A DNA stretch of 64,000 nucleotides from Pseudomonas sp. ADAK18 (GTDB lineage Bacteria; Pseudomonadota; Gammaproteobacteria; Pseudomonadales; Pseudomonadaceae), in the NCBI RefSeq assembly GCF_012935695.1, contig NZ_CP052859.1:4195001-4259000 (forward strand), given 5' to 3'. Both the position numbers and the translations under genes were made by a program. The notes beneath the pieces are model-generated. The model did no database searches. It was not told where the DNA came from and saw only the letters and a list, made by a program, of their open reading frames with translations. How positions within the stretch are numbered: the stretch's first letter is position 1; each line of letters begins with the position of its first letter. Positions 15,000 through 62,149 of the stretch are shown in pieces.

Positions 15000-15140
15000 T
15001 GTCGATCTCTCCTAATTGTGTTTTTCATCGGCCGGTGTCAATTCCGGCAGGTTAAATTCCGGCGGCGCCGGTCGCGGTTCGCAGGACGAAACGCGGAAGT
15101 CTGTCTGGTGTTGCCACCAGAAACCTTGCGGTGACCGTTA

Positions 15141-15169
15141 CATAAGGGCGCATAAGCTTATTACAAGGC
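15141..15169 (-). promoter_or_regulatory. Candidate heat-shock (sigma32) promoter of groESL
   Basis: On the minus strand CTTGTAA is followed after 12 nt by CCCTTAT, close to the sigma32 pattern CTTGAAA–CCCCATT, about 140 bp before groES. No CIRCE repeat was seen. Confidence 0.4.
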
Positions 15170-56789: not shown

Positions 56790-57128
56790 TCACGGCTGGT
56801 TGGGCGGTGGGCCTTCGTTGACCCCGATCCGCTTGGCCGCCCAGCGTTCATACAAGCCGATGGCCACGTCGGCACCGGCCATGGCGGTCAGGCAGCCAAT
56901 GGCGCCGGCGGTCCAGATCGACATGCCGGCGGCATAACACAGCATCAATGCCGAGACTCCGCAGACCATGCACGCCCCGGAGCGTAGGGCCAGACGGCGA
57001 ACCAGCGACCATCCACGGGCGCCCTCCTTGTCGGCGCGCCACATTTCTCCGGAAACCCCGCCGATCACCGCTAATACGATGACCAGCCAGATAGGCATTT
57101 CCGCTAACGCTTGCTGCTCGTTTGTCAT
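56790..57128 (-). CDS. Holin
   Basis: 112 residues with three hydrophobic segments (about 12-28, 50-70, 72-92) and a polar C-terminus, of the phage holin type found first in R-pyocin clusters (PA0614 position). Forms the membrane hole that releases the endolysin. GGAGG about 8 nt before the ATG. First gene of the tailocin operon downstream of the operator region. Confidence 0.85.
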   Translation of the reverse strand: MTNEQQALAEMPIWLVIVLAVIGGVSGEMWRADKEGARGWSLVRRLALRSGACMVCGVSALMLCYAAGMSIWTAGAIGCLTAMAGADVAIGLYERWAAKRIGVNEGPPPNQP

Positions 57129-57192: not shown

Positions 57193-57315
57193 TCAAATCC
57201 ATTGCGTCTCAAAGGGCGCCTTCTTCAGGTAGGCATTCCAAAAAGCCCGGTTGCCCGGGCTTTTCAGTAATGCGGTCCTTGACCTTTCGGCGCTACTGGC
57301 GCGGTACAGGTCCAT
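57193..57315 (-). CDS. Possible 40-residue leader ORF
   Basis: ATG right after an in-frame TAA, 40 codons, ending FETQWI. It reads straight through the terminator hairpin at 57241-57264 (encoding KSPGNRAF). Ribosome site weak (GGA 14 nt upstream). Could be a chance frame; if translated it would break the hairpin. Confidence 0.25.
   Translation of the reverse strand: MDLYRASSAERSRTALLKSPGNRAFWNAYLKKAPFETQWI
57241..57264 (-). terminator. Strong intrinsic terminator upstream of the holin
   Basis: AAAAGCCCGG–GCAA–CCGGGCTTTTT: six G/C pairs plus an A/T extension, GNRA tetraloop and five Ts in the minus-strand direction. It lies between the operator-controlled promoter and the holin gene. Confidence 0.8.
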
Positions 57316-57467
57316 TTAAATTGTTAGTTCCGACCACGATCCCTGTCTGCCGGATAACTGCTTCTGGTGCTTTACGCTGCACACCCGGGTCAGTTGCCAA
57401 CCCTCTGAACCGTTAAGGCCGGTTCATCGCTGCCTGTTGTTGGTAAAACGGTGGAACTAAAGAGCGT

Positions 57468-57566
57468 CGGCATCCTTGCCGGTATTGCCTGGCATCCGTG
57501 CCACCTTGGGTGGCGTCCTTGCCAATGTTGCGTGCCGTCCTTGTCTTCCCTGGCAGCATCCTTGCC
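57468..57566. repeat. Five-fold 21/22-bp imperfect tandem repeat
   Basis: C(A/G)TCC(T/G)TGCC-like cores every 21 or 22 bp on the plus strand, with only the core and short flanking complement conserved. Confidence 0.85.
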
Positions 57567-57602
57567 GCCTCCACCAGACCTTATTGGCTGGCTTGAGATG
57601 AA

Positions 57603-57631
57603 GAATATGCATGTATGCATATACAGTCAAT
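57603..57631 (-). promoter_or_regulatory. Operator-controlled tailocin promoter
   Basis: Minus strand TTGACT (57626-57631), 17-bp spacer, TATTCT (57603-57608). The spacer contains the palindrome ATATGCAT-AC-ATGCATAT, so repressor binding would block polymerase directly. Confidence 0.7.
57606..57623. promoter_or_regulatory. Repressor operator O1
   Basis: ATATGCAT-GT-ATGCATAT, perfect 8-bp arms, in the promoter spacer. Confidence 0.65.
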
Positions 57632-57760: not shown

Positions 57761-58495
57761 TTAACGGGCGTACATGCCCCACCAGAAAACGTGACCGAGG
57801 ATGCTGATTTGCTCTTCCTGGATTTCCTGGAAACTGTAGTCCTCGTCCGGATGTTCATCGCGATTGAAGCTGCGCAGGCGAATCCCCGAAGGCAGGCGAT
57901 AGAGCTGCTTGACCCGCAACTGGCCGTTGTGATTGATGGCGTACAAATCACCGTCGACGATGTCGCCAATCCCGCATTTTCCGGCATTGACCCCCACCGT
58001 CGCGCCGTCGCGCAGCACCGGCAACATACTGTTGCCACGTACGGTCACGCATTTGGCCTGGTCAAACTGCACGCCGTTATGCCGCAGGCTGCGCTTGCCG
58101 AAACGCAGGCTGGCCTTCTCGCTTTCCTCGATGACGAATCTTCCTGATCCAGCAGCCAATTCAACCTCGCGCAGAAAGGGGATCGACACCTCGTCATCGT
58201 TGACGGGGGTATCGTCGTCCCACAGGCTTATGTCCTTGAGTTCCGAATGCATCGGGTCGCGCTCGTCTTCCCGCGACGCTACCAATGCCGCGCGCCCGCG
58301 CAGTTGATCAGTGCTGACGCGAAAGTAGTCGGCGATGCGTGAGATGTGTTTGTCCGACGGATCAACGATCTTGCCGCTGAGAATCCGGGACAGTGTGGAT
58401 TGAGGCACGCCGGTACGCCGGTGAAGCTCCGTGGGGGAGATCCGGTCGCGATCCAGCAGCTCTCTTAAGACGATAGAAACGTTGCGTTTTTGCAT
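57761..58495 (-). CDS. LexA/CI-like self-cleaving repressor (PrtR-type)
   Basis: 244 residues: N-terminal XRE HTH (TELHRRTGVPQSTLSRILSG), linker, and S24 peptidase domain with cleavage site AAGSG (Ala-Gly), catalytic Ser in RGNSMLPVL and Lys in LRVKQLYRL. RecA filaments formed after DNA damage trigger its self-cleavage and so induce the tailocin. The ATG at 58495 has no ribosome site; the mRNA may be leaderless. Related to PrtR of pyocin clusters; no PrtN-type activator gene is nearby. Confidence 0.9.
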   Translation of the reverse strand: MQKRNVSIVLRELLDRDRISPTELHRRTGVPQSTLSRILSGKIVDPSDKHISRIADYFRVSTDQLRGRAALVASREDERDPMHSELKDISLWDDDTPVNDDEVSIPFLREVELAAGSGRFVIEESEKASLRFGKRSLRHNGVQFDQAKCVTVRGNSMLPVLRDGATVGVNAGKCGIGDIVDGDLYAINHNGQLRVKQLYRLPSGIRLRSFNRDEHPDEDYSFQEIQEEQISILGHVFWWGMYAR

Positions 58496-58502
58496 AACGC
58501 GG

Positions 58503-58531
58503 ATATTGAAGGCAGTTTTCGCGGATGGCAA
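58503..58531 (-). promoter_or_regulatory. Promoter of the repressor gene
   Basis: Minus strand TTGCCA (58526-58531), 17-bp spacer, CAATAT (58503-58508). The expected start of transcription is at or next to the ATG. Confidence 0.55.
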
Positions 58532-61825: not shown

Positions 61826-61959
61826 CAAAAAAAAGGGGCGGTATGACCCGCCCACATTTTTTCCCTAGTCCCTGTGTTCCTTTTCATCATCCTGATGAAT
61901 CGCATCCTGCGAGGTTCCCTGAGTCATCGTTCCTTGATGACTGTGTCAATCCGTGGACA
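61826..61959 (-). ncRNA. rsmZ: Small RNA RsmZ
   Basis: About 134 nt on the minus strand beginning TGTCCACGGATTGACACAG, near-identical in design to P. fluorescens RsmZ. It holds eight GGA motifs, several in loops (TCATC-AAGGAAC-GATGA, TCGCA-GGA-TGCGA, TTCATC-AGGAT-GATGAA), and ends in GGGCGG–CCGCCC with a T-run (61826-61853). It sequesters RsmA/RsmE and so relieves translational repression under GacS/GacA. Position beside fdxA is the conserved one. Confidence 0.9.
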
Positions 61960-61967
61960 CAGGGCTG

Positions 61968-62131: not shown

Positions 62132-62149
62132 AGTAAGTAAATGCTTACA
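62132..62149 (-). promoter_or_regulatory. GacA upstream activating sequence of rsmZ
   Basis: Minus strand TGTAAG-CATTTA-CTTACT fits TGTAAG-N6-CTTACA with one mismatch, about 175-190 bp upstream of the RNA start, the distance known for this family. The rest of 61996-62200 is AT-rich with no gene seen. Confidence 0.85.

Follow-up and report, generated by a model that had tools for sequence, protein, structure and literature searches.

The leader of the tailocin operon of Pseudomonas sp. ADAK18 carries, directly behind its promoter, a dense row of CANGGANG motifs, the binding consensus of the Rsm/CsrA proteins. This raises the question whether an RNA made under a phage-type repressor binds the Rsm proteins of the host, and what such binding would bring about. 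A preliminary description of this DNA had suggested either a sponge for Rsm proteins or an Rsm-controlled switch of the tailocin itself. Here, the region was analyzed within a window of 64,000 nucleotides (contig NZ_CP052859.1, positions 4,195,001 to 4,259,000; all positions below are those of the window) and compared with related loci, Pseudomonas genomes, plasmids and viral contigs.

Organization of the control region

The control region lies on the minus strand, between a prtR-like repressor gene and the tailocin operon's holin gene. In the direction of transcription the following features are found:

57761..58531, minus strand: PrtR-like CI repressor gene, 5' of the leader, with HTH and S24 peptidase domains (Pfam PF00717 and PF13443)
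57602..57630, minus strand: promoter TTGACT-17-TATTCT with TGCAT operator-like repeats (TATGCATACATGCATA) in its spacer
57458..57595, minus strand: array module (covariance model R1), consisting of a 5' hairpin and six CANGGANG motifs
57329..57435, minus strand: structured leader RNA domain of 107 nt (model R2) with four helices supported by covariation, in a put/nut-like position in phages
57233..57273, minus strand: long, conserved, terminator-like hairpin GCATTACTG-AAAAGCCCGG..CCGGGCTTTT-TGGAATGC, which ends the leader
56790..57128, minus strand: holin gene (Pfam PF16085), the first gene 3' of the leader

The leader begins at the TTGACT-17-TATTCT promoter and all six motifs are located within its first 140 nt. 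A promoter with an operator in its spacer had been placed just 5' of the motifs; a promoter with an operator-like repeat in its spacer is indeed present and the promoter is kept in relatives, with 0.5 promoters of this kind expected by chance in the stretch scanned. According to Pfam, baseplate and tail genes come after the holin gene, the start of which is more than 300 nt away from the 3' end of the array. Elsewhere in the window, a Pseudomon-groES RNA (RF01721) was observed at 15031-15141 on the minus strand.

The motif array and its fold

The six strict CANGGANG motifs span 94 nt on the minus strand (57564-57471):

57557..57564, minus strand: Rsm motif 1, CAAGGATG, within a 7-bp hairpin
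57545..57552, minus strand: Rsm motif 2, CAGGGAAG, the dispensable one
57536..57543, minus strand: Rsm motif 3, CAAGGACG, a strict CANGGANG
57514..57521, minus strand: Rsm motif 4, CAAGGACG, in GGC[ANGGAN]GCC
57493..57500, minus strand: Rsm motif 5, CACGGATG, in GGC[ANGGAN]GCC
57471..57478, minus strand: Rsm motif 6, CAAGGATG, in the hairpin CGGC[AAGGAU]GCCG

The array described initially is therefore real, but it had been counted as five motifs, since CAGGGAAG at 57552 was overlooked. The steps between those five (57564, 57543, 57521, 57500 and 57478) are 21, 22, 21 and 22 nt in this order. Within 57241-57631 the six motifs compare with a mean of 0.21 and a maximum of 3 in 20,000 dinucleotide-preserving shuffles, none of which reached four, and the densest other 110-nt stretch on either strand of the window contains two. 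Furthermore, two GGC[ANGGAN]GCC elements 3-25 nt apart occur in the array only within the whole 6.47-Mb genome (two overlapping matches), and the reversed-pattern control gave no match in this genome.

In the consensus fold, two motifs are displayed in hairpin loops, motif 1 on a 7-bp stem and motif 6 on a CGGC/GCCG stem. The internal loop beneath a GCCAUC/GAUGGC stem has motif 4 in one strand and motif 5 in the other, and motifs 2 and 3 lie outside hairpin loops. An alternative fold, which competes with the GCCAUC/GAUGGC arrangement, places motifs 4 and 5 each in a 3-bp GGC/GCC hairpin. The proposal of four GGA sites in hairpin loops consequently holds for motifs 1 and 6, and for motifs 4 and 5 in the alternative hairpins only, but not for motifs 2 and 3. 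Since the array sequence hardly varies, the helix evidence within it is thin, with 2 of 31 pairs compensated; the GCCAUC/GAUGGC helix contributes one such pair, in four rows. Thermodynamic folding of whole leaders is unreliable here. As in titrating sRNAs, several GGA/ANGGA motifs, some of them in hairpin loops, are found in the array (six ANGGA/CANGGANG).

Distribution of the array

A PrtR query matched 82 of 144 relatives, and control regions were taken from 52 close and 18 more distant prtR loci. At least five CANGGANG motifs at the same place are present in 11 of the 52 close loci, whereas in the remaining 41 no more than one is found within 700 nt 3' of prtR. On the prtR tree these 11 carriers form one clade (support 100/99), corresponding to one change. 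A search with the DNA pattern of the last hairpin returned 60 contigs, six of them already among the prtR loci; all are labelled Pseudomonas, and most are named species which we take to belong to the P. fluorescens subgroup. The carriers L082, L098, L107 and L124 are recorded under the names P. viridiflava or P. syringae and are perhaps misnamed fluorescens-group genomes or transfers.

Of 398 Pseudomonas genomes searched with the covariance model of the array, 68 gave a match at E <= 0.001. Sixty-five of these score above 130 bits; the remaining three, at about 26 bits, contain no array on inspection. Every strong carrier has one copy except G154, in which an additional copy scores 74 bits. 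This second locus (L141), elsewhere in the genome, consists of a degenerate array with two strict motifs together with promoter and domain.

In viral contigs, a two-hairpin pattern was found at at least 120 loci. Among the viral matches listed, those away from the R2 domain have two or three CANGGANG nearby, save L208 with four and L213 with five, the latter match ending 14 bases from the end of the stored sequence. Upstream of the 173 domain copies among the viral matches listed, a set enriched for arrays because the first scan had asked for them, CANGGANG occurs all-or-none: no motif in 95, one in a single case and four to six in 77.

Conservation of the motifs

From 71 array loci (11 prtR loci and 60 contigs), six duplicates and three truncated ones were dropped, which left an alignment of 62 non-redundant loci with 58 distinct rows. 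Across these rows, none of the 12 GGA columns of motifs 1, 3, 4 and 5 varies, and only 1 of 24 columns does when all fixed CANGGANG letters of these motifs are taken together. All eight of their N positions vary (those of motif 1 in only one row each), as do 31 of the 52 remaining array columns. Fisher tests of the column contrasts gave p values of 9e-7 and 3e-6, which serve as a guide only, since the rows are related. Six full motifs are present in 42 rows and five in 16; in 10 of the 58 rows motif 2 has lost its GGA. The spacing between motifs drifts by 1-3 nt among relatives. Conservation of motif 6 is in part a matter of construction, since the DNA search pattern contained it, while the other motifs were free to vary; in L140, outside the 62-row alignment, the last hairpin is one loop base short, so that motif 6 is not absolute.

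This pattern of variation is the one expected of an Rsm/CsrA-binding RNA. That the GGA sites would be kept in related tailocin loci was borne out within one clade (the 11 of 52 close prtR loci).

The downstream RNA domain and the terminator-like hairpin

The region proved richer than initially described, as it also contains a genus-wide structured RNA domain. This R2 domain (AGGCAGCGATG...GGTCGGA), located 3' of the array, is found in tailocin, prophage, phage and plasmid sequences (e.g., L012-L024, L060, L063, L068 and L131-L134), and array-less tailocins have it too. The array is a clade-specific addition to an older leader containing R2. Among 33 distinct sequences, pairing is kept in 99.7% of the pair cells, and both sides have changed in 11 of 24 pairs (27 cells vs. 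3.5 in shuffles). Within Pseudomonas, 171 of 298 genomes contain the domain. When 293 genomes were sampled across the order, there were six positives, all from the genus of the window (1 of 118 genera). It also matches 27 Pseudomonas plasmid records, one of which was inspected. Within the window, no Rfam family reached its gathering score at the domain.

HK022 put and lambda nut are structured leader RNA elements of phage operons. With R2, a conserved structured RNA at the start of a phage-type operon was likewise found in the one tailocin and two phages inspected: in tailocin DVM-2008 and phage PseuP_224 it comes after the repressor gene, and in phage Orimi01 it heads an operon divergent from a repressor-like gene. 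Small deposited genes partly cover R2, namely a Com-like gene in DVM-2008 and a hypothetical protein in PseuP_224.

The leader ends in the long hairpin, which has invariant flanks. Its core consists of ten base pairs, AAAAGCCCGG-GCAA-CCGGGCTTTT, with one further T behind the stem, and had been called a strong terminator. This core is conserved, but it lies inside the longer hairpin (57233-57273) and the terminator scan did not call it, so that it is terminator-like only; a separate scan found a stem with a U-run in 43 of 47 leaders. In L017, L031 and L034 the hairpin GCATTACTG..TGGAATGC is doubled, with a second copy some 540-700 bp away, perhaps around an inserted gene, which resembles a cassette boundary or a serial terminator. 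A consensus scan for a further sigma-70-type promoter between hairpin and holin gene found none. Therefore, the operon probably needs read-through, and for this reason a put-like role is proposed for R2, a candidate antitermination RNA.

A folding switch between motif 6 and R2, controlled by Rsm proteins, was considered and set aside. The minimum-energy fold of whole leaders suggests it, but folding is inconsistent: helix 2 of R2 has a mean P of 0.03 in 59 array leaders and 0.30 in 36 array-less leaders. Since folding of the isolated domain also fails to predict this helix (mean P 0.07, n 50), such a switch remains speculation.

Rsm and Gac context of the host

Three CsrA homologues above the Pfam cut-off as well as RsmY and RsmZ were found in the host genome, so the target proteins are present. 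The rsmZ gene lies in the same window (61828-61961, minus strand), about 4 kb from the array and on the same strand. GacA recognizes an upstream site of consensus TGTAAG-N6-CTTACA, and a GacA-type site with one mismatch stands beside rsmZ (62132-62149). No convincing GacA site was found 5' of the array promoter; the sole upstream match has three mismatches and lies about 300 bp off in prtR (57928-57945). Matches of this quality carry no meaning, since the window has 8 and its shuffles 11.3. The array is therefore probably no ordinary Gac-driven rsm gene, in agreement with the Gac independence initially envisaged.

No model of the Rfam clan CL00106 reached its gathering score in the region: the RsmY model gives 15 bits over the array (cut-off 57), and the rsmX model reaches 24.8 bits against a cut-off of 56, at a place that does not overlap the array (57240-57312). 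With a permissive threshold, Rfam gave no convincing match either. The array, RsmY and RsmZ contain 7, 8 and 8 GGA and 6, 4 and 6 ANGGA, respectively. Strict CANGGANG motifs number 6, 0 and 0, a count that is no measure of affinity, because RsmY and RsmZ work without any.

A difference was seen for rsmX (RF02144). It is above cut-off in 233 of the 398 Pseudomonas genomes and in none of the 65 strong array carriers, 32 of which have weak matches only (best 44.3 bits vs. the cut-off of 56). For the 41 prtR loci without an array, a strong rsmX match (E 2.5e-13 or better) was seen in 34 hosts and was missing from 7. This contrast is at most a hint of compensation and may reflect a single clade-level coincidence or phylogenetic event.

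Proposed function and alternative explanations

The strict motif, the invariant GGA, the free N positions, the restriction to one strand and the conservation in the carrier clade support the original reading as an Rsm/CsrA-binding RNA in the tailocin leader, and binding of RsmA/RsmE to the array is very likely. Our main reading, to which we assign a probability of about 0.6, is that the leader array is a high-affinity site for RsmA/RsmE-type CsrA proteins and would sequester them without GacA. The six sites would offer room for about three RsmA/RsmE dimers. Upon an SOS response, PrtR would be inactivated, as its S24 peptidase domain suggests, and the leader would be transcribed, giving a terminated RNA of about 350 nt or else forming the 5' end of the operon mRNA. 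By capturing Rsm proteins this RNA would relieve Rsm-repressed genes without GacA. The leader may thus be of dual use, with possible feedback on tailocin output.

Other meanings of the repeats were weighed against the same data. Five of the six motifs are spaced by 21 and 22 bp, about two helical turns, as might be expected of an operator for a DNA-binding protein. However, the invariant core NGGAN is non-palindromic and lies on the transcribed strand 3' of the promoter, the spacing shifts by 1-3 nt among relatives, and exactly the N positions of the Rsm consensus vary, all of which makes an operator very unlikely. The array could also be part of a gene for a leader peptide of 34 residues (GGAGG-8-ATG ... 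CTCTTTAG), as the ATG is present in 61 of 62 loci and the 34-codon frame in 42, with two more having one extra codon. Yet 15 of the 62 loci are out of frame with the stop and another three terminate prematurely, the distinct minority codons comprise 7 synonymous and 40 nonsynonymous ones compared to 39 and 14 in the first 34 holin codons, and CTCTTTAG is present in many array-less leaders also. These frame breaks and the nonsynonymous excess over the holin start render a peptide gene very unlikely. Equally improbable is chance, or a repeat without function: the selectively invariant GGA over 62 loci, the presence of the array in all 11 clade members and the motif-count shuffles all disfavor it, even though repeats arise by duplication and the array-less loci L014, L015, L024, L028 and L042 carry one related hairpin without GGA.

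A more serious alternative accepts Rsm binding and places its effect in cis. Here, Rsm proteins on the leader would govern the tailocin mRNA (its stability, folding of the domain, read-through of the hairpin or access of Rho), and tailocin output would therefore read the Gac/Rsm state. The six-site pgaA leader and the flhDC leader are the CsrA models for such control. That the array belongs to the leader of only one operon, with the conserved R2 domain and the terminator-like hairpin as its neighbors, agrees with it, as do data from strain SBW25, where the comparison is at the level of the tailocin and not of the array. Plasmids carried by SBW25 induce its tailocin, and deletion of gacS reverts some plasmid-induced expression changes (PMC8544851); in the accessible text the authors route the plasmid effect through PFLU4242, and reversion of the tailocin in the gacS mutant is not stated outright there. 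At best, these findings fit either titration or cis control. Against cis control, no Rsm motif overlaps the holin ribosome-binding site, array-less relatives share promoter, domain and hairpin, and the folding calculations for R2 and its helix 2 reveal no consistent switch. Cis control as the main role is possible though doubtful. As the main effect of binding, titration is preferred to cis control, at roughly even odds.

Some points count against the sponge as well. Induced cells would lyse, which would limit the benefit to the cell, and 41 of the 52 close prtR loci manage without an array, 7 of these 41 in hosts that lack rsmX too.

Taken together, it is probable that a weapon controlled by a phage-type repressor is connected to the main switch of secondary metabolism of the cell. 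The most complete version, in which a Gac-independent, SOS-induced Rsm sponge was gained once in an RsmX-less lineage and fused to an antitermination-type leader RNA, with Gac tuning the weapon, is put forward tentatively, its chances being somewhat below even. If true, a single RNA would connect DNA damage with kin-killing lysis and with the Rsm regulon in 65 of the 398 sampled Pseudomonas species genomes, and DNA damage would release a lysis weapon and Rsm-repressed secondary metabolism together. The array represents a concrete, removable element for probing the links between Gac, plasmids and tailocins, and R2 a second, genus-wide RNA domain to characterize.

Comparison with known systems

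The preliminary description knew of no precedent, and in the open-access literature (titles and beginnings of abstracts) we found no phage- or tailocin-borne Rsm-binding RNA and no work joining tailocins with RsmE. For tailocins together with GacA, or with RsmA and sRNA, this literature yielded PMC8544851, the accessible text of which does not describe the array. In P. fluorescens SS101, 16 sRNAs including RsmY, RsmZ and PrrF1 have been predicted (PMC4353343), and this set, given in part in the text available, may include an earlier prediction of the array. Genes for CsrA on phages and plasmids have been discussed (PMC7366521).

The classical Rsm sponges RsmX, RsmY and RsmZ answer to GacS/GacA (PMC7366521; PMC9928087). 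Like these CsrB-type RNAs, the array would present multiple GGA, partly in hairpin loops, on one short RNA to the same host proteins. In contrast to them, it stands in a tailocin leader behind a PrtR-type promoter without a convincing GacA site, has no Rfam match at threshold and contains more strict CANGGANG than RsmY and RsmZ of the host.

Other relatives are found among decoys and leaders. RsmV and RsmW of P. aeruginosa also bind Rsm proteins without belonging to the classical Gac-driven trio; by their general description they are set apart from the array as not being tailocin leaders. The Salmonella fimAICDHF leader helps to titrate CsrA and is thus a decoy within an mRNA leader, as is proposed for the array, which has six sites and is found in a tailocin operon of phage origin and in a different genus. 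The E. coli pgaA leader has six CsrA sites as well, which reach the ribosome-binding site, whereas those of the array end more than 300 nt 5' of the holin gene. Finally, R2 is likened to put and nut by position, not by sequence, and R2 was found in Pseudomonas only; in common they have a structured leader RNA that starts a repressor-controlled phage operon and precedes a terminator-like hairpin.
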